Assembly: GCF_001267925.1 (NCBI RefSeq)
Contig: NZ_CP011409.1
Span: 2,418,001-2,482,000, forward strand
Direction: 5' to 3'
Origin: Herbaspirillum hiltneri N3
Lineage (GTDB): Bacteria > Pseudomonadota > Gammaproteobacteria > Burkholderiales > Burkholderiaceae_D
Length of the DNA: 64,000 bases
Below are positions 36,710 to 48,154 of this stretch, piece by piece. Each line of letters starts with the position of its first letter. Within the stretch, counting starts at the first letter, position 1. The notes below the pieces were generated by a model. The model worked only from the letters and a program-made list of their open reading frames with translations. It made no database searches and was not told where the DNA came from. The translations under genes and the position numbers were made by a program.

Positions 36710-38278
36710 ATGCAGCATGCGTTGGGGAAGCGGGTATCCGCTATCGGGACAAATTATTCGTCGCTGGCCAAGACCGCGGCAAGCGGTGCCATCGGCCTGC
36801 TGATACTCAGCGGCTGCTCAACGCTGGACATCGACTCGGCGCGACTTTCAACATCGGAGATTCGCTCCACTCTCGCCGAGGATCGCGCCGCGCTGACCCG
36901 TGATGTGGCTCCCTTGAGCGGCCCGCTGACCTTGAACGAAGCAATTGCCCGCGCCATCAAGTACAACGCCGATCGCCGCTATCGGGCCATGGAAGAAGCT
37001 GTCGCCATGGGGACGTTCGAAGCCGGCCAGTTCGACATGCTGCCCAAGCTGGTTGCTTCCGCCGGTTATCGTAGCCGCAACAATGACCTGATTACCCGCA
37101 GCACCGATTCAGTGACCGGCGCGCCTTCATTGGCCAATCCTTACATTTCTTCCAGCCGCACTGCCGTCACTACCGATGTCGGCATCTCCTGGAGCCTGCT
37201 CGACTTTGGACAGAGTTATTACGCAGCCCGCCAAAATGCCGATCGCGTCCTGATTGCCGGGGAACGTCGACGCAAGGCGCTGCACAATCTGATCCTGGAT
37301 GTGCGCACGGCCTATTGGCGCGTCGTCGCGGCACAAAAACTGATGCCTCTGCTGCGCACCACCATCACTGAATCCGAGCTGGCGCTGAAGGATGCGCGCA
37401 AGGCCGAAGCGGACCGCATCCGGTCGCCCCTGGAGCCGCTGCGTTATCAGCGCCAACTGCTGGAAAATTTGCGCCTGCTCGAAACCATAGAACAGGAACT
37501 CTCGGCTGCGCGCATTGAATTGGCGACGCTGACAGCGATACCTCTGACCGTTGACTACACGGTCGTCGATCAGGCCGGCGACATCAATACGGCATGGCTT
37601 GGCCAACCGATGGACAAACTGGAAGAAGTGGCATTGCTGCGCAATCCCGATTTGCGCGAAGGCATCTACAACGCCCGCATCGCGCAACAGGAAACCCGGC
37701 GTACGCTGCTCAAATTTTTCCCCGGCTTGTCGTTCAATTACGGCTACAAGCGTAGCGACGACGATTATCTGATTCATCAGAACTGGACCGAAGCGGGTGC
37801 GCAGATCTCATTCAATCTGCTGGGCTTGCTGTCTGCGCCTGCGCAAATGCGTCTGGCCGATGCGGGGGTCGCACTGGCGGATCAGCGCCGCATGGCGATA
37901 CAGATGGCTGTGCTGAGCCAATTGCACATCGCGCGATTGCAATACGCGAATACGGCTCAACAGTACGAGCGCTCTGACGCCATTGCGCAAGTCGATGTGC
38001 GTCTTGCTCAGCACATCGCCAATCAGGCCAGTGCGGAAAAACAATCGACGCTGGACAGAATTTCGCAACAGAGCGCCGCGGTGCTGTCCCAATTGCGTCG
38101 CTACCAGGCCTTGTCGAACGCGCAAGCGGCGGCATCACGCCTGCAAGCGACATTGGGTATGGAACCTTCTGTGGACGCGACATCGGACATGCCGTTGGAG
38201 GCATTGACGGCGGCCGTCGACAAATCCCTGCAGGCGTGGAATCAGGGTGTCTTGCCGGAACCAGAGAGTCGTCCATGA
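36710..38278 (+). CDS. TolC-like outer-membrane efflux lipoprotein
   Basis: A 522-residue TolC-family protein. The N-terminus has a hydrophobic signal with a lipobox (LLILSGCS, Cys near residue 41), so the protein is probably lipidated like NodT/OprM-type channels. Two long helical repeats follow, with ALTRDVAPLSGPLTLNEAIARAIKYN opening the first and GVALADQRRMAIQMAVLSQL in the second. It would form the trimeric outer-membrane and periplasmic tunnel of a secretion or efflux machine. It is the first gene of the 36.7-48.1 kb cluster and overlaps the next by four bases (ATGA). Confidence 0.88.
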   Translation: MQHALGKRVSAIGTNYSSLAKTAASGAIGLLILSGCSTLDIDSARLSTSEIRSTLAEDRAALTRDVAPLSGPLTLNEAIARAIKYNADRRYRAMEEAVAMGTFEAGQFDMLPKLVASAGYRSRNNDLITRSTDSVTGAPSLANPYISSSRTAVTTDVGISWSLLDFGQSYYAARQNADRVLIAGERRRKALHNLILDVRTAYWRVVAAQKLMPLLRTTITESELALKDARKAEADRIRSPLEPLRYQRQLLENLRLLETIEQELSAARIELATLTAIPLTVDYTVVDQAGDINTAWLGQPMDKLEEVALLRNPDLREGIYNARIAQQETRRTLLKFFPGLSFNYGYKRSDDDYLIHQNWTEAGAQISFNLLGLLSAPAQMRLADAGVALADQRRMAIQMAVLSQLHIARLQYANTAQQYERSDAIAQVDVRLAQHIANQASAEKQSTLDRISQQSAAVLSQLRRYQALSNAQAAASRLQATLGMEPSVDATSDMPLEALTAAVDKSLQAWNQGVLPEPESRP

Positions 38279-39078
38279 TTTCAGCCTTACACGGTGGGCG
38301 CGGCCGGCTGGCATTTGCCTATGCGTTTTCCTGTGCGTTTACACTGCTTGCATCAACTGGCTACGCCGCTGCGCCGCAGGCCTCAGCCGGATCTGCAACC
38401 GGATCAGCCCTCGAAAATCGCGAAATCCGCGCCCAATTGGCGCCACGCCGTTACACCACGTTGGCGGCTGAAATCGGCGCCAAGATCAATCGCTTGCCAT
38501 TGGTCGAAGGTGCTGCATTCAAGCAAGGACAGGTGCTGGTGCAATTCGACTGCATGTTGCAGCAGGCCCAGCTGGCGAAAGCCAACGCTGCATTGATGGC
38601 CGCCGATGCCACGTGGCGCGGGAATCAAAAACTGGCTGAGCTCAATTCGGTCGGAAAGATGGAACTCGAGGTGTCGAAGGCCGAAGCGCTCAAGGCGCAA
38701 GCCGAAGTCGCCGCCAACCGGACGCTGATCGGGAAATGCCAGATTTCCGCGCCATTCGCCGGTCGCATCGCCGAGCAAAAGGTGCGGGAACAGCAATACG
38801 TGCAGCCCGGCCAGGGACTGATGGAAATCATTGACGACAGTCAGCTGGAACTGGAATTCATCGTCCCTTCGCGCTGGCTTGCGTGGCTGCGCAATGGTGC
38901 GGCGTTCCAGGTCAACATTGACGAAACCGGCAAGACTTATCCAGCCAAGGTGCTGCGCATCGGTGCGCGCGTCGATCCGGTCAGCCAGTCCGTCAAGCTG
39001 ACCGCGGTGATTGACGGCCACTTCAGTGAGTTGATTGCCGGCATGAGCGGCAAAGTCCTGATCGCACCACCACGCTAG
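38275..39078 (+). CDS. Short HlyD/RND-type periplasmic adaptor
   Basis: A 267-residue periplasmic adaptor. A signal peptide (about 10-35, ending TGYAAA) is followed by a barrel-sandwich hybrid: KINRLPLVEGAAFKQGQVLVQFD, a short helical hairpin (LAKANAALMAADATW to ALKAQAEVAANR), and ISAPFAGRIAEQKVREQQYVQPG. Such proteins join an inner-membrane partner to TolC. It is shorter than HlyD of type I secretion and has no inner-membrane anchor apart from the signal. ATG overlaps the stop of the TolC-like gene (ATGA), so translation is probably coupled. Confidence 0.87.
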   Translation: MISALHGGRGRLAFAYAFSCAFTLLASTGYAAAPQASAGSATGSALENREIRAQLAPRRYTTLAAEIGAKINRLPLVEGAAFKQGQVLVQFDCMLQQAQLAKANAALMAADATWRGNQKLAELNSVGKMELEVSKAEALKAQAEVAANRTLIGKCQISAPFAGRIAEQKVREQQYVQPGQGLMEIIDDSQLELEFIVPSRWLAWLRNGAAFQVNIDETGKTYPAKVLRIGARVDPVSQSVKLTAVIDGHFSELIAGMSGKVLIAPPR

Positions 39079-39164
39079 TATCTGCGCGCGTTCAATTGAA
39101 TTGTTCAGTCGCGATCGTTTCAATTGTTCAATCGTTCCAAACGCCCCTCACATAGGAGCACGCC

Positions 39165-42100
39165 ATGAACCAGTTGATTTCTTCCCTGCGTCGCGCTGCC
39201 GCCGATGCCGCTGTTGCTGCTGTTGCCGATACTGATAAGCCAGCCGTCCGTCGGCCGCTGCGGCATGCATCGCAATTGCTGTCGCTGGAACAACGCTTCA
39301 TGTTTGACGGCGCTGTCGCCGACGCAGCACACGCCGCCCAGGCGCATGACAGCGCGCCGCCGCCAGTGCCGCCGGCAGTCACGGTGCGAGCCGCCGATCC
39401 GGCCAAGGACGAGGGCAAGAAAGAGGTGGTACTGGTCGACACCTCCGTCGCCAATTACAAGAGCCTGGAAGCCGGCGTCCGCGATGGCGTAGGCATCGTC
39501 GAGTTCGACGGCAGCAAGGACGGCCTGGCGCAGATCGCGCAATGGGCGGCCACGCAAAACGGACTGGATGCAATCCACATCCTCTCGCATGGCTCGGAAG
39601 GTGTAATCAACCTCGGCACGGCGCGGTTGGATGAAGCGACGCTGGGAACCGCCACCACCCAGGCTGAACTGGCGCAACTTGGCCAGGCCCTGACCGCCGA
39701 CGGCGACTTGCTGTTGTACGGCTGCGATGTCGCCGCCGGCGACAACAACACGCTGATCGCCGATCTGGCGCAGGTCACCGGCGCCGATGTCGCGGCGTCG
39801 CGCGACGCCACCGGCGCGGCAGCCATCGGCGGCAACTGGACGCTCGAAGCGCATGCCGGCAAGATCGACACCAAAGCGCTCGACATCGCCGACTATCAGG
39901 GCCTGCTCACCTTGATTACCTTGTCCGGCAGCGACGCCGACTACACCTCGACCACCATCGTCAAGCAGGTCAACGGCCAGAACATCACGTTTTCCGGCGG
40001 CGCCAGCGCCGGCGGCCTGGGCATTGACGGCACCTATGGCACGGACGGGTTGTACGCCTATCAAGGCCCGACCAATGAAGTCAAACTGACGATCACAATC
40101 GGTTCCGGCTACAGCTTCGACATCAGCTCGTTCGATGTCGGCGTCCTGACCGGCTCGCTGAGGATAGACTTTACGTATGCCGACAATACAACCGACACGC
40201 TGACAGTCAACTCGCTGGCCAACGGCTGGCAGACCGTGCTCAATTCCAGCCTGAGCAAACAGATCAACGACGTCAAGCAGGTGGTGTTCAGTTCCGGCGA
40301 TTTCGGGCTGTTCCAGAATTTCGACATCACTGACGTCAAGGCTGTGCTGCACCCGCCCACGGTCACGGTCAACAGCGCCAGCCTGTCGGCCGACACCGGC
40401 ACCAGCAGCAGCGACTTCATCACCAAGACCGCCGCGCAAACCATCAACGGCACGCTGTCGACCAACCTGAGCACGGGCGAAAAGGTTCAAGTGTCGTATG
40501 ACAACGGCAGCAGCTGGACCGATGCCACCAGCTACACGGTCGGCTCCAGCAGCTGGAGCACCACCACCACGCTGGCCGGCAGCAGCACCTTCCAGGCGCG
40601 CGTCACCAATAGCGACGGCTCCAGCACCGCCTACACGCACAGCTACGCGCTGGACACCACGGCGCCCACCACCAGCTTCAGCGGCATCGCGCTGTCAGCC
40701 GACACCGGCAGCAGCGGCAGCGACTTCATCACCAAGACTGCGGCCCAGACCATCACGGCCACCCTGAGCACAACGCTGACCGCCGGTGATGTCGTCTACG
40801 GCTCTCTGGATAACGGCGCCACCTGGACCGACATCACCAGCAAGGTGTCCGGCACCACGCTGACCTGGAACGGCGCCACCCTGGGCGCCGGCAGCAGCTC
40901 CATCGCGTTCAAGGTGACCGACGCAGCCGGCAACGACAGCAGCCTGAGCTCCCATAGCTATACGCTGGACACCACCGCGCCCACCACCACTGTGGCCACG
41001 GCGGCCTTCTCCAACGACAGCGGCACCTCGTCGTCCGACTTCGTCACCAATACGGCGGCGCAGGACCTGAGCGGCACGCTGTCGGCCAACCTGGCCGTCG
41101 GCGAGACGGTGCTGGTATCGCTCGACAACGGTTCGACCTGGACCACCGCCACCACCACCGTGGGCCAGAACACCTGGTCGCTGGCCGGGCGCACGCTCAC
41201 CGCCAGCAACACCCTCAAGGTCAAGGTCAGCGACACCGCCGGCAACGACGGCAGCGTATTGAGCCAGGCCTACGTCTACGACACCACGGCGCCGACCATC
41301 GCCTTCAACAGCCTGGCGCTGTCGGCCGACACCGGCGGCAGCAACAGCGACTTCATCACCAAGACTGCGGCCCAGACCATCACGGCCACCCTGAGCACCA
41401 CACTGGCCGCCGGCGACATCGTCTACGGTTCGCTGGACAACGGCGCCACCTGGACCGACATCACCAGCAAGGTCAGCGGCACCGCCCTGAGCTGGAACGG
41501 CGTCACGCTGACCGGCAGCAGCACGTTGCAGCTAAGGGTCGTCGACGCCGCCGGCAACAGCGGCAGCGCCAAGACCCAGGCCTACACGCTCGACACCAGC
41601 ACCCCGGCCACGCCCGGCACGCCGGTGCTGGCAGGAGCCAGCGACACGGGCGCCTCCGGCAGCGACGGCGTGACCAGCGACACCACGCCGACACTGAGCG
41701 GCACGGCCGAGAACGGCAGCACCGTCACCGTGTTCGACGGGGCCACGCTGCTGGGCACCGTCACCGCCGGCGCCGGCGGCTGGACCCTGACCACCGGCGC
41801 GCTGGCCGAAGGCAACCACACCATCACGGCCGTCTCCACGGACGCCGCCGGCAACGCCACGGCCGCTTCGGCCGCGCTGACCATCAACATCGACTCCACC
41901 GCGCCCACCGTCGCCTCGGTGGCCGTGCCGGCCAACGGCACCTACTACAATGGCAATCCGCTGGACTTCACCGTCAACTTCGACGAAGCCGTCACCGTCG
42001 ACACCACCGGCGGCACGCCGCGCATCGCCCTCGTGGTCGGCGCCACCACGCGCTACGCCAGCTATGTGTCCGGCTCCGGCACCAGTGCGCTGGTGTTCCG

Positions 42101-44573
42101 CTACACCGTGCCCGGCGGCGACGTCGATGCCAACGGCATCACGGTCGGCGCGCTGTCGCTCAACGGCGGCACGCTGCGCGACACCGCAGGCAACAACGCC
42201 GCGACCACCCTCAACAGCGTCGGCAGCACGGCCGGCATCAATGTCGACGGCACCAGCCCGAGCGTGACCGGCATCAGCGCCACCACTGCGGACGGCAGCT
42301 ACGCCGCCGGCCAGACCATTACCATCACGGTAGGCTTCTCCACAGCGGTGGACGTCGACACCAGCGGCGGCACGCCGACGCTGACGCTCGACAACGGCGG
42401 CGTCGCCAGCTACGCGGGCGGCTCGGGCAGCAGCACGCTGACGTTCACCTATGTGGTCGCCGCCGGGCAGAACAGCGCCGACCTCGACTACGGCTCGACC
42501 GCCGCGCTGGCGTTCAACGCTGCCACCATCACCGACGCCGGCGGCAGCCACCGGCCTGCCGACCTCACGCTGGCCACGCCGGGCACGGCCGGCTCGCTGG
42601 GCGCCAACAAGAATATCGTCGTCGACACCACCGCGCCGACCAACACCGTGGCTGGCGCCAGCTTCTCGTCCGACACCGGCAGTTCCAGCACCGACTTCAT
42701 CACCAAGACTGCGGCGCAAACCATCAGCGGCACGCTGGCGTCAAACCGGGCGGCCGACGAGCAGGTCTACGTGTCGCTGGACAACGGCGCCACCTGGACG
42801 CTGGCGACCAGCAGCGCCGGCGCCAACACCTGGTCGCTGGCCGGGCAGACGCTGTCCGGCAGCGGCACCCTGAAAGTGCGCGTCAGCGACAACGCAGGCA
42901 ACAACGGTACCGCCTACTCGCAGGCCTACGTGCTCGATACCACGGCGCCCACCACCAGCTTCAGCGGCATCGCGCTGTCGGCCGACACCGGTGCCAGCAA
43001 CAGCGACCTGATCACTAACACGGCGGCGCAGACAATCTCCGCCACGCTCAGCAGCGCCCCGGCGGCCGGCGACATCGTCTACGGCTCGCTGGACAACGGC
43101 GCCACCTGGACCGACATCACCAGCAAGGTGTCCGGCACCACGCTGACCTGGAACGGCGTCACCCTGGCCGCCAGCAACACGCTTCAACTGCGCGTGACGG
43201 ACGCCGCCGGCAACAACGGCGCCGCCACCAGCCGGGCCTACGTGCTCGACACCACCGCCCCGACCACCAGCGTGGCCAGCGTGGCCTTCTCGGCCGACAG
43301 CGGCGCCTCCGGCAGCGACTTCATCACCCGTACGGCGGCGCAAACGGTAAGCGGCACCCTGTCCTCCAACCTGGCGGCCGGCGAATCAGTGCTGGTCTCG
43401 CTCGACAACGGCGCTACCTGGAACACCGCCAACGCCACTGTCGGCAGCAATGCCTGGTCGCTGGCCGGCCAGACCCTCAACGCCAGCAACACCCTGCTGG
43501 TCAAGGTGACCGACACCGCCGGCAACGACGGCGCCGTGCTCAGCCAGGCCTACGTCTACGATACTGCGGCCACGGTAGCGACCGTCGACACGCTGCAGAC
43601 CGACAGCAGCACACCCACGTTGACCGGTAATGCCACCCTGGCCGCAGGGGAAACCATGACGGTCACTGTCGGCGGCGCTACGTATAATGTCGTTCCGGTA
43701 GCAGGGCATTGGAGCCTTGATCTGTCCACGGCCGTCCCGGCGAGCGGTGTTTTGGCGCTGCCTACGGCGCATCGTTACGAGGTGGTGGCAACCGTCACCG
43801 ATATCGCCGGCAACACGTCCAGCGACGTCAGCAGCAACGAACTCACGGTCGGAACGATTGCAACCGTTGCGCCATCGTCGCCGCTACCGCCTCCGCTGCC
43901 GGTGCAAACGCAAATCCCGCCGCCTCTCGCCATACAGACCGGAGGAGAACCGGCGTCTCCCGGACTGCCTCCAAACGAGGCAAGCATCGCGCCCATCCTC
44001 ACGCCTTCCGTCGCCTGGAGCAGTCCGTTGATGTCCGGCGTCTTCACGCTTGATTCGACTACGTTGTCCGAACCTCAGGCGCTGACCAGCGGCCGCCCGG
44101 ATCTGATTGGCAACGATGGCGTCCTGATCAGCAATACGCCTATTCCCGACCTGAACGTACGCAATAATGGTCCTATCTCTCTTCAGGTGCCCGGCGATGC
44201 CTTCTCCTACGGCGGAAATGCAAGCAGCCTGCAGTTGAACGCGACCCTGGCGGACGGCAGGCCGTTGCCGACCTGGCTCAAGTTCGATCCCTCCACTGGC
44301 CGGTTCACAGGTACGCCACCCCTCGGATTTGAAGGTACGCTGAATTTCAAGGTCAGTGCGCGCGACAGCCAGGGCCACGTCGCGGTACAGACGTTCAAGA
44401 TCGTCGTCACCAAAGAGGGACAAAACAACCAGCGCGCGCAGCTTGAGCGCGGCCAGCAGGAACCGGCGGGACGTCCCGGCCTGAACGAACAAATCAGATC
44501 GGCGCATGCGGCGGGAGCCGATCGCCTGGCCCTGTTGTCGCGTAGTCCGGCGACGACGCGATTGCGTGCATGA
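39165..44573 (+). CDS. Giant DUF4347 / Ig-like repeat surface protein
   Basis: An 1802-residue protein with AGGAG before its ATG. There is no Sec signal peptide; residues 41-50 are LEQRFMFDGA, resembling the LEPR-type motif I recall from the N-termini of very large exported proteins. Residues about 85-248 form a DUF4347 domain (HILSHGSEGVINLG, DGDLLLYGCDVAAGD). A beta-rich region to about 395 is followed by about eleven Ig-like domains to ~1560, a Pro-rich linker, and a cadherin-like/He_PIG domain (PTWLKFDPSTGRFTGTPP) near 1690-1760. No RTX nonapeptides are seen, so the usual type I C-terminal signal is lacking. Probable role: adhesin or biofilm matrix protein exported by the neighbouring proteins. 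Its stop overlaps the next start (ATGA). Confidence 0.9.
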   Translation: MNQLISSLRRAAADAAVAAVADTDKPAVRRPLRHASQLLSLEQRFMFDGAVADAAHAAQAHDSAPPPVPPAVTVRAADPAKDEGKKEVVLVDTSVANYKSLEAGVRDGVGIVEFDGSKDGLAQIAQWAATQNGLDAIHILSHGSEGVINLGTARLDEATLGTATTQAELAQLGQALTADGDLLLYGCDVAAGDNNTLIADLAQVTGADVAASRDATGAAAIGGNWTLEAHAGKIDTKALDIADYQGLLTLITLSGSDADYTSTTIVKQVNGQNITFSGGASAGGLGIDGTYGTDGLYAYQGPTNEVKLTITIGSGYSFDISSFDVGVLTGSLRIDFTYADNTTDTLTVNSLANGWQTVLNSSLSKQINDVKQVVFSSGDFGLFQNFDITDVKAVLHPPTVTVNSASLSADTGTSSSDFITKTAAQTINGTLSTNLSTGEKVQVSYDNGSSWTDATSYTVGSSSWSTTTTLAGSSTFQARVTNSDGSSTAYTHSYALDTTAPTTSFSGIALSADTGSSGSDFITKTAAQTITATLSTTLTAGDVVYGSLDNGATWTDITSKVSGTTLTWNGATLGAGSSSIAFKVTDAAGNDSSLSSHSYTLDTTAPTTTVATAAFSNDSGTSSSDFVTNTAAQDLSGTLSANLAVGETVLVSLDNGSTWTTATTTVGQNTWSLAGRTLTASNTLKVKVSDTAGNDGSVLSQAYVYDTTAPTIAFNSLALSADTGGSNSDFITKTAAQTITATLSTTLAAGDIVYGSLDNGATWTDITSKVSGTALSWNGVTLTGSSTLQLRVVDAAGNSGSAKTQAYTLDTSTPATPGTPVLAGASDTGASGSDGVTSDTTPTLSGTAENGSTVTVFDGATLLGTVTAGAGGWTLTTGALAEGNHTITAVSTDAAGNATAASAALTINIDSTAPTVASVAVPANGTYYNGNPLDFTVNFDEAVTVDTTGGTPRIALVVGATTRYASYVSGSGTSALVFRYTVPGGDVDANGITVGALSLNGGTLRDTAGNNAATTLNSVGSTAGINVDGTSPSVTGISATTADGSYAAGQTITITVGFSTAVDVDTSGGTPTLTLDNGGVASYAGGSGSSTLTFTYVVAAGQNSADLDYGSTAALAFNAATITDAGGSHRPADLTLATPGTAGSLGANKNIVVDTTAPTNTVAGASFSSDTGSSSTDFITKTAAQTISGTLASNRAADEQVYVSLDNGATWTLATSSAGANTWSLAGQTLSGSGTLKVRVSDNAGNNGTAYSQAYVLDTTAPTTSFSGIALSADTGASNSDLITNTAAQTISATLSSAPAAGDIVYGSLDNGATWTDITSKVSGTTLTWNGVTLAASNTLQLRVTDAAGNNGAATSRAYVLDTTAPTTSVASVAFSADSGASGSDFITRTAAQTVSGTLSSNLAAGESVLVSLDNGATWNTANATVGSNAWSLAGQTLNASNTLLVKVTDTAGNDGAVLSQAYVYDTAATVATVDTLQTDSSTPTLTGNATLAAGETMTVTVGGATYNVVPVAGHWSLDLSTAVPASGVLALPTAHRYEVVATVTDIAGNTSSDVSSNELTVGTIATVAPSSPLPPPLPVQTQIPPPLAIQTGGEPASPGLPPNEASIAPILTPSVAWSSPLMSGVFTLDSTTLSEPQALTSGRPDLIGNDGVLISNTPIPDLNVRNNGPISLQVPGDAFSYGGNASSLQLNATLADGRPLPTWLKFDPSTGRFTGTPPLGFEGTLNFKVSARDSQGHVAVQTFKIVVTKEGQNNQRAQLERGQQEPAGRPGLNEQIRSAHAAGADRLALLSRSPATTRLRA
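40359..43855 (+). repeat. Tandem Ig-like domain repeats inside the surface-protein gene
   Basis: About eleven units of 300-380 bp encode roughly 100-residue beta-sandwich domains, most ending in YxxDTTAPT. Seven units share the core DSG/DTG-xSxSDFIT-xTAAQT and SLDNGATW (units starting near 40359, 40666, 40981, 41288, 42637, 42948, 43258). Units near 41599, 41905, 42256 and 43570 are of other Ig-like subtypes. Some stretches, such as ACCAGCTTCAGCGGCATCGC at about 40671 and 42955, are identical in DNA, so the array can change length by recombination. Confidence 0.85.
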
Positions 44574-45958
44574 ATCCGGGCCCGGTCTTCAATCCTCTGC
44601 TGGCCCTGCTGGAACTAGCACAAAGTGCGCGCGCGGCGAGCAGCCCGAACGAGCTGGCCTTCCTCGCCGTCAATGACAGCCGCACCCTGGCGCCTTACCG
44701 CCAGGCCGCACTGTGGTTTGGTGCCGGCGGTGTTCACACCCTGTCCGGCGTGGTCGCGGTCGAGGCCAACGCGCCCTATGCGCAATGGATCGACCAGTTT
44801 TGCCGCGCGCTTGCCGAGCAGCATGACGCGAATACGCCGCTCGCGGTCGAAGCCGCGCGGCTGCCGCCCAAAGTCACCGCCGCCTGGGACGAATGGCTGC
44901 CTCCTTGCGTCACATGGATACCCCTGAACAGAACCGGGCGCGTAACTGAAGACCGGTCCGGTACCTCCGGCCAGGCCGGCTTGCTGCTGGCGGGCGATCT
45001 GGCGCTGTCGGCCGAGCAGTTGGCGTCGCTGTCGGAATGGATGGACATCTGGCAACACGCCTGGCGCGCCCTGCATCGCGGACCGCGCTGGTCGCTGGCG
45101 GCCTTGCCGACTTATCTGCGCAATTGGTGGAACGCTTCCTTGCCATCCTTGCGCTGGCGTCGCCGCGCCGCGGTCGCGGTCGCCGTACTGGGCGTATTGC
45201 TGTTCCCGGTGCACCTGACGGTGCTGGCTCCGGGTGAACTGGTTCCTGCCAATCCTGCCACCATCCGCGCGCCGCTCGACGGCGTCATCGCCAACTTCAC
45301 CGTCCGTCCCAATCAGTCGGTCGCGTCCGGCCAGGCACTCTTTTCTTTCGACCAGGCGCCGATCGACAGCAAGCTCGATGTCGCGCGCGAAGCGCTGTCC
45401 ACCGCCCAAGCGGAATATCGGCAGGCAGCGCAGATCGTGCTCAACGATCCCCGCGCCAAAGCGCAACTGGCGGGGCTGCTGGGCAAGGTCGCTGAAAAGC
45501 AGGCGCAGGCCGCCTTCCTCGAGGGCCAGGCTCAGCGCTCGAAAGTACTGGCGCCGCAAGCCGGCATCGCCTTGTTCGACGACCCGTCCGAGTGGATCGG
45601 ACGCCCGGTGCAAACCGGCGAACGCATCATGCAGATCGCGGCTCCCAATGACGTGGAGATCGAAGCCTGGGTGCCTCTGGGCGACGCGATTCCCCTGCCG
45701 GACCAGGCGCCGCTGCATCTGTATCTGGCATCGGCGCCATTGACGCCGCTCTCCGGCACGCTGCGCTATATGGGACATCGCGCAACAGCGCGTCCCGACG
45801 GCACTTATGCCTATCGCGTGCGCGCCAAGATCGACGCCGCGACTGACCAGCGCATCGGCCTGAAAGGAACCGCAAAGCTGGTGGGCGACCGCGTGCCCCT
45901 CGTCTACTGGATATTGCGGCGGCCATTGGCGAGCATTCGCCAGTTCCTCGCCGTGTAA
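44570..45958 (+). CDS. HlyD-family membrane adaptor with cytosolic N-terminal domain
   Basis: A 462-residue protein. Residues 1-195 form a soluble, probably cytosolic domain of GAF-like appearance (ELAFLAVNDSRTLAPYRQAALWF). One transmembrane helix lies at about 198-217 (AAVAVAVLGVLLFPVHLTVL), and a periplasmic HlyD-type barrel-sandwich domain with a short helical hairpin follows (NPATIRAPLDGVIANFTVRPN; KVLAPQAGIALFDD). It would bridge the inner membrane and TolC, and the cytosolic part could sense or receive substrate. It overlaps the surface-protein stop (ATGA) and is 5 nt upstream of the M50 gene. Confidence 0.85.
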   Translation: MNPGPVFNPLLALLELAQSARAASSPNELAFLAVNDSRTLAPYRQAALWFGAGGVHTLSGVVAVEANAPYAQWIDQFCRALAEQHDANTPLAVEAARLPPKVTAAWDEWLPPCVTWIPLNRTGRVTEDRSGTSGQAGLLLAGDLALSAEQLASLSEWMDIWQHAWRALHRGPRWSLAALPTYLRNWWNASLPSLRWRRRAAVAVAVLGVLLFPVHLTVLAPGELVPANPATIRAPLDGVIANFTVRPNQSVASGQALFSFDQAPIDSKLDVAREALSTAQAEYRQAAQIVLNDPRAKAQLAGLLGKVAEKQAQAAFLEGQAQRSKVLAPQAGIALFDDPSEWIGRPVQTGERIMQIAAPNDVEIEAWVPLGDAIPLPDQAPLHLYLASAPLTPLSGTLRYMGHRATARPDGTYAYRVRAKIDAATDQRIGLKGTAKLVGDRVPLVYWILRRPLASIRQFLAV

Positions 45959-45963
45959 ACATC

Positions 45964-48066
45964 ATGCCTGCAAGATTGCCGAGCCTGCGCCAGGAATTAT
46001 CCATTTCTGCCGGACCAAGACTTCCCGACGGCCAGCCCAGCTGGACGCTGCACGACCCCGTGCGCAATGTCTTTTTCCAGCTCGACTGGCCCAGCTTCGA
46101 AATGCTCAGCCGCTGGGACCTGGATGATGCGGCAGCGATCATCGGCGATATCAATCGCTCGACTGCCTTGCAACTCGACAAGGAGGCGTTTGACCATTTC
46201 TTGAATTTCTTGCGGGAGCAGAATCTGCTGCAGCCGGCGTCCGGTTCCGCCCCGGTATTTGCCGCGGCGCGTGAGCGGCAGCGCGGCACTTTGTTTCAAT
46301 GGCTGCTGCACAACTATCTGTTCTTCCGCATCCCCTTGCTACGCCCCGATGCCTGGCTGACATGGCTGCAACCACGCCTGGCGTTCCTGTTCAGTCCCAC
46401 GTTTCGCCGCCTGACCATCGCCGCCGGCGTGCTGGGTATTCTTGGCGCCTATCGCGAATGGGATCGGTTCTCCGCAACGCTGATGGATACCCTGAGCTGG
46501 CAAGGCGCGGCGATGTATGGCGTGGCTGTCGTGTTTGCCAAAACCTGTCATGAACTGGGACACGCGCTGACGGCCAAGCGGTATGGCTGCCGCGTGCCGA
46601 CCATGGGATTGGCTTTTCTGGTGATGTGGCCGGTCGCCTACACCGACACCAACGAAGTGTGGAAGCTGCCGCGGCGCGAACAACGCCTGGCGGTGGCCGG
46701 CGCCGGCATCGTGACCGAAATGGGAATCGCCGCGTGGGCCACGCTGGCGTGGGCCTGGCTTCCGGAGGGCGGCGTAAAGCAGGCCGCCTTTCTGTTGTCC
46801 ACCACGACCTGGATTTCCACGCTGGCGATCAACGCCAGCCCCTTCATGCGCTTCGATGGCTACTACATTCTGTCGGACTATCTGGGCCTGCCCAATCTGC
46901 ATAACCGCTGCTTCGCGCTGGCGCGCTGGGATCTGCGTGAACGCCTGTTTGCGCTGGGCGAACCAGCGCCCGAAGTGTTCCCGCACCAGCGCCGCATCGG
47001 CCTCGTCCTGTTCGCCTGGGCGGTCTGGATTTACCGGCTGGTGCTGTTTCTTGGCATCGCCGCATTGGTCTACCATTTCTTTATCAAGGCGGTCGGCATC
47101 CTCTTGTTCTTCATCGAAATGGGATGGTTTGTGGCGCTGCCTATCTGGCGGGAAATACAGGCATGGCGTCTGCGATGGCCTGCATTGAAACACAGCCCTC
47201 GCGCCCGTGTCACCGCGATGCTGGCAACCTTGCTGTGTCTGCTGTTCCTGCTTCCGTGGCCGGGACGAATACGTACTTCCGGGATGCTGCAACCGCAGAC
47301 CAGGATGGCGTTGTATGCGCCGCCACAATCCAGGGTCGAATCCCTGCCGGTGGCAAGCGGACAGAAGATACAGGCCGGGCAGACGCTGCTGCGCCTGAGC
47401 TCGCCTGAACTGGACCTGCGCATCGGCGAGGCGGATGCGCGCCACGAAGCCTTGTCCTGGCAATCCGCAGCGGCCGGCTTTGACACGGCCACACGCAAGG
47501 ACTGGCAACTCCTGAATGATCAGCTGGCTTTTTCCGATGCCGAGCAGGCATCCGTCAATGTTGACCTCCAGCGCTATCGTCCGGTCGCGCCGTATGCCGG
47601 GGTATTGGTGGATGTCGATCCGGACCTGAGGCCGGGACAGTGGATAAAAAATCAGGAATATCTGGGCACGCTGGTGGCCGGCGGCCAATGGCAGGTCGTG
47701 GTATATGTCGACGAAGATGCGCTGCATCGCATCGATCGTGGCGACCGTGCGCTATTCATTGCCGATGGATTGGGAAGCCCGTCGTTGCGACTGACCGTAT
47801 CCAGTATCGATCGCGACGCCACTCGCACAATGGGAGAGCCTGAGTTGGCGAATCTGTTCGGCGGCGACGTACTGGCGAGAGAAAAAAACGGCGTGCTCTA
47901 TCCGGAAAACGCCGTCTTCCGTGTCGTATTGAATGTTGCCGGGGCGCTGCCGGCGGAGCAGCAGGAATGGCGCGGACACGTCACCATCGCAGGCCGGTGG
48001 GAAGCGCCGGCATTGAGATTCTTGCGTACCGCGGCATCGGTCGCCTGGCGTGAAGCCGGTTTCTAG
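45964..48066 (+). CDS. Membrane M50 metalloprotease fused to a HlyD-like domain, PqqD-like N-terminus
   Basis: A 700-residue protein. Residues 1-95 look like a PqqD/RRE-type peptide-binding fold (PSWTLHDPVRNVFFQLDWPS). The polytopic membrane core follows, with the site-2-protease zinc motif H196-E197-L198-G199-H200 and the second motif N290-A-S-P-F-M-R-F-D298-G, both intact. From about 435 a periplasmic barrel-sandwich hybrid (MALYAPPQSRVESLPVASGQ, YRPVAPYAGVLVDVDPDLRPG) resembles HlyD. It takes the position where an ABC exporter would be expected in a type I secretion cluster. Activity as protease, channel or both is unknown. Last gene of the cluster, followed by a strong terminator. Confidence 0.85.
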   Translation: MPARLPSLRQELSISAGPRLPDGQPSWTLHDPVRNVFFQLDWPSFEMLSRWDLDDAAAIIGDINRSTALQLDKEAFDHFLNFLREQNLLQPASGSAPVFAAARERQRGTLFQWLLHNYLFFRIPLLRPDAWLTWLQPRLAFLFSPTFRRLTIAAGVLGILGAYREWDRFSATLMDTLSWQGAAMYGVAVVFAKTCHELGHALTAKRYGCRVPTMGLAFLVMWPVAYTDTNEVWKLPRREQRLAVAGAGIVTEMGIAAWATLAWAWLPEGGVKQAAFLLSTTTWISTLAINASPFMRFDGYYILSDYLGLPNLHNRCFALARWDLRERLFALGEPAPEVFPHQRRIGLVLFAWAVWIYRLVLFLGIAALVYHFFIKAVGILLFFIEMGWFVALPIWREIQAWRLRWPALKHSPRARVTAMLATLLCLLFLLPWPGRIRTSGMLQPQTRMALYAPPQSRVESLPVASGQKIQAGQTLLRLSSPELDLRIGEADARHEALSWQSAAAGFDTATRKDWQLLNDQLAFSDAEQASVNVDLQRYRPVAPYAGVLVDVDPDLRPGQWIKNQEYLGTLVAGGQWQVVVYVDEDALHRIDRGDRALFIADGLGSPSLRLTVSSIDRDATRTMGEPELANLFGGDVLAREKNGVLYPENAVFRVVLNVAGALPAEQQEWRGHVTIAGRWEAPALRFLRTAASVAWREAGF

Positions 48067-48130
48067 CCGGCTCCGTAAAATCGCCAGGCGGCTTGCCCGC
48101 GCAGGTCGAAGCAAGTCCCGTCAAAATGAA

Positions 48131-48154
48131 GCCCGCTTGCGCGGGCTTTTTTTT
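48131..48154 (+). terminator. Terminator of the export cluster
   Basis: GCCCGC (48131-48136) pairs with GCGGGC (48141-48146) across loop TTGC and is followed by eight T residues (48147-48154). It lies 65 nt after the M50 gene stop. Confidence 0.85.

Follow-up and report, generated by a model that had tools for sequence, protein, structure and literature searches.

A giant protein encoded among HlyD adaptors, a TolC-family channel and an M50 protein with a predicted RRE fold in Herbaspirillum hiltneri N3: a candidate secretion unit

How could a protein of 1802 residues leave the cell when the genes around it encode a TolC-family channel and HlyD adaptors but no ATP-binding cassette (ABC) exporter? 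This question is raised by five genes at positions 36710-48066 of the window, the 64,000-nucleotide stretch of Herbaspirillum hiltneri N3 analysed here (contig NZ_CP011409.1, positions 2,418,001 to 2,482,000, forward strand). An earlier note, made from the sequence letters, had described a five-gene TolC/HlyD/giant/HlyD/M50-HlyD cluster with overlaps or short gaps, and had proposed that the giant may be exported by parts like those of a type I secretion system (T1SS), with the M50 protein in the place of the ABC exporter. The reading favoured here, which we hold at an even balance of probability, is that the block constitutes a type-I-like secretion unit dedicated to the giant, containing the M50 protein and guided by a RiPP (ribosomally synthesised and post-translationally modified peptide) recognition element (RRE). 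It draws on the recurrence of the block, on a predicted RRE fold in the M50 protein, on a leader-like motif at the start of the giants and on the association of this motif with the M50 gene. The features of the block were as follows.

36710..38278, + strand: TolC/OEP-family outer-membrane factor, 522 amino acids (Pfam OEP, 6.5e-29)
38275..39078, + strand: short periplasmic HlyD/RND-type adaptor, about 267 amino acids from ATG 38275 (HlyD_3, 7e-21)
39165..44573, + strand: giant surface protein, 1802 amino acids, proposed cargo (DUF4347, 1.1e-48; Big_13, 5.4e-61, nine stretches)
39276..39314, + strand: leader-like motif LLSLEQRFMFDGA, giant residues 38-50, proposed RRE ligand (N-terminal sequence comparison)
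44570..45958, + strand: membrane HlyD adaptor (gHlyD), 462 amino acids (HlyD_3, 3.2e-18)
45964..48066, + strand: RRE-M50-HlyD fusion, 700 amino acids (Peptidase_M50, 3.4e-07; HlyD_3, 1.1e-12)
48128..48149, + strand: predicted terminator-like hairpin with a T tract, 3' of the last gene (consensus match only)

All five open reading frames (ORFs) were found in one tight block on the + strand, with ATGA overlaps between genes 1 and 2 and between genes 3 and 4, and gaps of 86 nt (genes 2 and 3) and 5 nt (genes 4 and 5), and the block is real beyond reasonable doubt. The ORFs, Pfam domains and spacing bore out the cluster as it had been described, and a Pfam scan of the block ORFs agreed with the earlier statement that it holds no resistance-nodulation-division (RND) pump or ATPase: no ABC, RND, major facilitator superfamily (MFS) or other ATPase/pump gene was found in 36710-48066, nor any recognised modification enzyme. 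The proposal of T1SS-like export stood in so far as the block lacking an ABC gene is recurrent and the giant is its likely cargo, but it had missed the RRE, the leader motif and the conserved C-terminus of the giants.

Of 8000 candidates scored, at least 7332 were homologues of the M50 protein at E 1e-5. A scan of species genomes found 131 relatives, from which 80 loci (“type A”), many of them cut short, were kept, mostly from Burkholderiales and Rhodocyclales according to their titles, with some from Pseudomonas, Methylotenera and Sulfuricella; the earlier note had stated that such neighbourhoods occur in other proteobacteria. The M50, second HlyD and giant genes recurred together in these loci from other genomes. 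The giant was near the M50 gene in 70 of the 71 loci with room for it (L030 was the exception) and the second HlyD in 69 of 73; the four misses all had over-long M50 frames, and at least one of them (L017) does have the second HlyD. Where at least 2 kb upstream of the giant could be seen, TolC was present in 11 of 12 loci; where this was at least 0.9 kb, the short HlyD was present in 19 of 27. By these counts, giant, gHlyD and M50 form an almost constant core, and the TolC-HlyD side is less constant. In three loci (L025, L026 and L046) the giant adjoined the M50 gene on the opposite strand, and in L125-L128 the gene order differed, the giant being first or last.

The M50 protein comprised a predicted RRE fold (residues 4-91), the M50 membrane domain (about 140-430), with six transmembrane-like stretches by a simple hydropathy scan, and a HlyD domain (430-683). 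A fold search with the full model was filled by adaptor proteins, and the RRE domain was therefore folded alone: the first ~91 residues of the M50 protein were predicted to form a three-strand sheet and a winged helix, as in the RRE/PqqD fold, the presence of which is very probable on this structural model. The RRE alignment used 31 of 32 rows (L052 was dropped, its match beginning in the neighbouring gene). The zinc motifs were HELGH at 196-200 and NASPFMRFDG at 290-299. HExxH and the third zinc-ligand motif were kept in 28 of 28 aligned M50 members (the window protein and 27 of 120 listed homologues; a second alignment held the window protein and 18 of the 120), and HExGH with the third-ligand motif in 86 of 86 type-A M50 ORFs, as expected for an active protease kept by selection, which the intact motifs fit. 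Residues 63-390 matched the RiPP protease model daptide_HExxH (NF041824) at 151.5 bits (cut-off 300), and the closest named homologue, from Herbaspirillum lusitanum, was 84% identical.

The giant of the window contained DUF4347, Big_13 Ig-like repeats and Ca2+-stabilised repeats (Pfam and NCBIfam). The giants opened with an R-rich stretch followed by LxLE[QPA]RxMFD[GA]A, which reads LxLEQRFMFDGA in the window. This strict motif was present in 30 of 35 giant ORFs with an intact 5' end; three of the five without it (L016, L061 and L068) were C-terminal pieces lying behind an N-terminal DUF4347 ORF of the same locus, and the other two (L020 and L035) lacked such an explanation. It was not found in any other ORF of the type-A loci (5,041 ORFs scanned in all). 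At the other end, a 73-row alignment showed a conserved domain, LP.W..Fd..tG.F.g.pP, and a final motif, GRxgLseQlRxA. The middle region was variable between loci, and the block seems therefore to need the N- and C-terminus of the giant rather than its middle. The absence of a Sec signal, already proposed in the earlier note, holds as a hydropathy reading: within the first 100 residues of the window giant the 12-residue mean peaked at 1.32, and around the motif of 32 motif-bearing giants its peak was 0.65-1.72 in 31 and 2.27 in one. DUF4347 itself was considered as the export mark and rejected, on account of the motif being kept in seven giants with no match to the DUF4347 of the window (L038, L042, L048, L054, L063, L075 and L078) and of motif-less DUF4347 giants in genomes without the M50 gene.

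The association of motif and machine was followed in 150 genomes from the order of the window strain, each at least 95% complete. DUF4347 was present in 21 and M50 of the window family (E 1e-20) in 26, with both in 16. The M50 gene thus occurred in 16 of the 21 genomes that have DUF4347 and in 10 of the 129 that do not (Fisher 5e-11), and the LExR motif in 21 of 23 DUF4347 giants from M50 genomes against none of ten from M50-free genomes (Fisher 7e-07); both p values are too small, since the genomes share ancestry. All 33 DUF4347 matches were read at the N-terminus, one of the ten M50-free cases being a partial domain (G077). The wide LExR pattern was present in 59 of 2114 frames of at least 300 residues, giants and repeated stretches included, and chance matches are not rare. 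DUF4347 genes on a contig other than that of the M50 gene were not counted as evidence that the unit acts in trans, since several are truncated at a contig end and may be fragments of a split neighbouring giant. One genome of the same family (G092) carried two DUF4347 giants (L111 and L112), both without LExR, and no M50 at E 1e-20; these giants are probably exported by another route.

A sister family was also detected. The 37 M50 matches in the 150 genomes comprised 16 of type A (34-100% identity), 20 of a “type B” (25-30%, about 715 amino acids) and one short piece (G110:C37) placed in neither. Type-B loci scanned by Pfam encoded OEP, HlyD, GAF-HlyD and M50 proteins, and a SecA-like ATPase of 660-700 residues adjoined the M50 gene (SecA_DEAD, 1e-78 to 1e-104 in the four scanned). 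This SecA-like ORF was present in 18 of 20 type-B loci, one of the two others (L102) ending at the M50 gene, and in 0 of 86 type-A loci. Pfam PqqD was matched by 16 of 17 type-B M50 members, so that the RRE was seen there by sequence (the alignment held 17 of 20 type-B N-termini; L095, a near copy of L094, L100, with an uncertain start, and L109, by the length filter, were left out). Giant starts in type B read FExLExRxxxSAD (L096 and L101) and FESIEPRVLMSGD (L092), and most type-B loci showed no giant start; the giants of L096, L101 and L092, chosen because the motif was visible, all passed the cut-off of the LEPR-XLL model NF012209 (3 of 3 scanned), and the window giant gave no match to it at E 1. 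The type-B gene set is that of the secondary SecA_DEAD/M50/GAF-HlyD/HlyD module published in 2015 by Kamneva et al. (PMC4452313), who proposed SecA as the ATPase and M50 as the pore and called its biological role completely unknown. The available part of that article names no substrate or N-terminal motif for the module, and neither “lepr” nor “n-terminal motif” appears in its main text.

These observations suggest the following course for the favoured, RRE-guided unit. The giant precursor would stay in the cytosol, since it has no Sec signal, and its leader LxLEQRFMFDGA would be bound by the RRE with which the M50 protein would begin on the cytosolic side; we regard this recognition as fairly likely. 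The M50 membrane domain would hold the leader during entry of the chain into the envelope and might well cleave it, cleavage having slightly less than an even chance. The fused HlyD, the membrane HlyD and the short HlyD could form a periplasmic ring joining the TolC-family channel, and the chain would exit in one step, its Ig-like repeats folding outside the cell. The motor would come from outside the block, and housekeeping SecA is the first guess, because in the type-B sister a SecA-like ATPase accompanies this set of parts; one SecA match was found in the host genome. By this analogy, SecA may push the chain in type A, a tentative assignment which we consider the likeliest for the motor, though with less than an even chance.

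Several points weigh against this interpretation. Pfam PqqD matched 0 of 28 type-A M50 members, the type-A RRE profile found no PqqD in the PDB, and its match to the type-B domain was weak (E 0.001, probability 21%). Eight of the 27 loci with upstream sequence in view had no short HlyD. Both motif misses among the M50 genomes came from one genome with a type-A M50 (G054), which also carried a motif-bearing giant. The motif patterns were drawn from the giants themselves, and the LExR pattern was widened to take in the sister family once a narrower version had failed to catch some sequences. Topology, leader binding, cleavage and assembly of the conduit are steps that we infer, as is the SecA motor, for which the argument is one of analogy with type B. 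To these must be added the ABC exporters encoded in the genomes that carry the block. The earlier description of a system without an ABC ATPase is borne out for the block but not for the cell: among six ABC_membrane proteins encoded in the host genome was an LssB-like one (a T1SS class) at 3.886 Mb, 1.4 Mb from the block (448.7 bits, under the cut-off of 693.1, with a match that begins only at position 125 of the model; host MsbA-like proteins reach 359 bits on this model). The LssB check covered 40 of the 80 type-A loci, and among the matches listed 19 of 40 carrier genomes exceeded the LssB cut-off and 35 of 40 scored above 380 bits; three of the five lowest scorers exceeded the cut-off for PrtD, and one genome (G028) had a HlyB/C39-like ABC below cut-off. 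The idea that carriers are generally without T1SS-class ABCs was rejected on these LssB, PrtD and HlyB matches. In one locus, a HlyB-like ABC gene (L017:12211-14340; 597.6 bits to TIGR01846, under cut-off) followed the M50 gene on the same strand after 110 nt.

The giant might accordingly be translocated by a T1SS-class ABC from elsewhere, on which the HlyD and TolC proteins of the block would dock, the M50 protein trimming or anchoring the N-terminus. The exporters just described speak for this explanation, which we nevertheless consider unlikely: the host ABC has its own HlyD, OEP, OmpA-like and 2692-residue partners, the last of which starts without the leader motif (not in its first 70 residues); ABC-pattern ORFs occurred in just 6 of 81 loci (the 80 and the locus of the window), three on the other strand, two at 2.1 and 6.3 kb downstream and the one of L017, the sole directly adjacent ABC among the 80 loci; and the draft genome of Variovorax N23 (G005) gave no LssB, PrtD or HlyB match above cut-off among the matches listed, so that some carriers may do without a T1SS-class ABC. 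With no SecA-like ORF in type-A loci and few ABC-pattern ORFs, the M50 protein itself might instead be the inner-membrane gate, the chain being pulled by proton-motive force or by folding outside, with neither SecA nor ABC. We know of no M50 protein that acts as a channel, the membrane domain has just six transmembrane-like stretches, and type B has an ATPase beside the same parts; a gate of this kind thus appears quite improbable, even with the proposal that M50 forms the pore of the module with SecA (PMC4452313) and with the M50 protease EpeP thought to cleave and export EpeX, according to the available text of PMC10885120. The same text describes RiPP maturation as using both M50 proteases and RREs, and the resemblance of the M50 part to the daptide protease and the RND-adaptor score of the short HlyD (116.9 bits to TIGR01730, RND_mfp, above the cut-off of 94.9) would also fit the export of a small product or of the cleaved leader, the giant reaching the surface by another route. 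This is highly improbable, given that the block encodes neither an RND, MFS or ABC pump nor any recognised modification enzyme, that motif and M50 co-occur across genomes and that the giant gene sits within the block.

The favoured RRE-guided unit differs from the known systems that it resembles. Type I secretion (HlyB-HlyD-TolC and the LssB and PrtD classes) shares the TolC-family channel, the HlyD adaptors and a neighbouring giant repeat protein without a Sec signal, but the block lacks the ABC exporter and has extra adaptors, the M50 protein, the RRE and an N-terminal cargo motif. The module of Kamneva et al. (PMC4452313) likewise brings together M50, GAF-HlyD, HlyD and sometimes OEP with no ABC, and the HlyD domain of the type-A M50 proteins fits it, the type-B M50 proteins having been retrieved with the window protein as query; its SecA-like ATPase is what type-A loci lack. 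In contrast to RiPP leader readers (the lasso B1 RREs and PqqD), the RRE of the block is fused to M50-HlyD and its presumed ligand belongs to a protein of 1802 residues instead of a peptide precursor. RiPP M50 proteases (daptide_HExxH, NF041824; YydH/LiaK, NF058609) are the relatives that the block M50 matches under cut-off (NF041824), but it has a C-terminal HlyD domain, and no peptide precursor or ABC gene was recognised in the block. The LEPR-XLL domain (NF012209) is also an N-terminal LExR motif on giant proteins, and that of the window giant ends in FDGA, not SAD.

The individual parts, the SecA-bearing module and LEPR-XLL as a named motif are already known. The earlier remark that no mechanism had been worked out agreed with the open-licence literature, where none was found, but a SecA-bearing relative had been published in 2015 (PMC4452313). 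No open-licence paper was found that names an RRE in these M50 proteins, ties it to the motif, describes the form without SecA, or joins RRE, M50 and giant cargo; new here are the predicted RRE in the M50 protein, the leader-like motif tied to the M50 machine and the distinction of SecA-less and SecA-bearing types. A candidate function is thereby offered for three orphans: the LEPR-XLL/LExR motif, the M50-HlyD genes, which databases label “putative peptide zinc metalloprotease”, and the T1SS-like module with SecA that had been described without a substrate. If correct, leader recognition known from small peptides serves the export of ~2000-residue proteins, a type-I-like conduit can work without a dedicated ABC pump, and the block may represent a poorly explored route for secreting giant proteins. 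It is doubtful, though conceivable, that the block defines a secretion class of its own, in which a RiPP-style leader on giant adhesin-like proteins would be read by the RRE, an M50-adaptor fusion would admit and cleave the chain with no dedicated ATPase, and LEPR-XLL would be the same kind of leader for SecA-powered sisters.

Some further observations concern individual loci. The distant host locus with the LssB-like ABC (G000:C1:3874000-3893000; L089 and L090) encoded this ABC, a HlyD, an OmpA-like protein (weak match), an OEP and the 2692-residue ORF, which had no Pfam domain above cut-off. In L170 (genome G125), an LssB-like ABC gene was present in pieces in different frames, in a type-A genome that was otherwise complete. 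No short HlyD was present in the 1.0-2.8 kb upstream of the giant in L006, L007, L013, L027, L034, L037, L043 and L044, where the start of the block may be arranged differently. The type-A locus L125 (G054:C1:909000-928900) had the order HlyD, gHlyD, M50, TolC and, last, a giant with LEPRFMFDGA.

Within the block, the longest frame of the short HlyD gene began at GTG 38236, and ATG 38275, whose ATGA overlaps the stop codon of gene 1, is most likely the start. The block HlyD proteins scored far under the cut-off of TIGR01843 (type_I_hlyD), though HlyD_3 matched three block proteins. The membrane HlyD had an N-terminal domain of ~200 residues, a single hydrophobic stretch near 201-220 and then HlyD; in type A its N-terminal domain gave no Pfam GAF match and may be called GAF-like by analogy with type B, whose homologue matches Pfam GAF. 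The TolC/OEP protein carried LSGC near residue 36, which we take to be lipobox-like. The host genome was a single contig of 4.97 Mb with one DUF4347 match, and the block was flanked by unrelated genes by Pfam, for a LysR regulator (+ strand, 35503) and a methyl-accepting chemotaxis protein (- strand, 48176).

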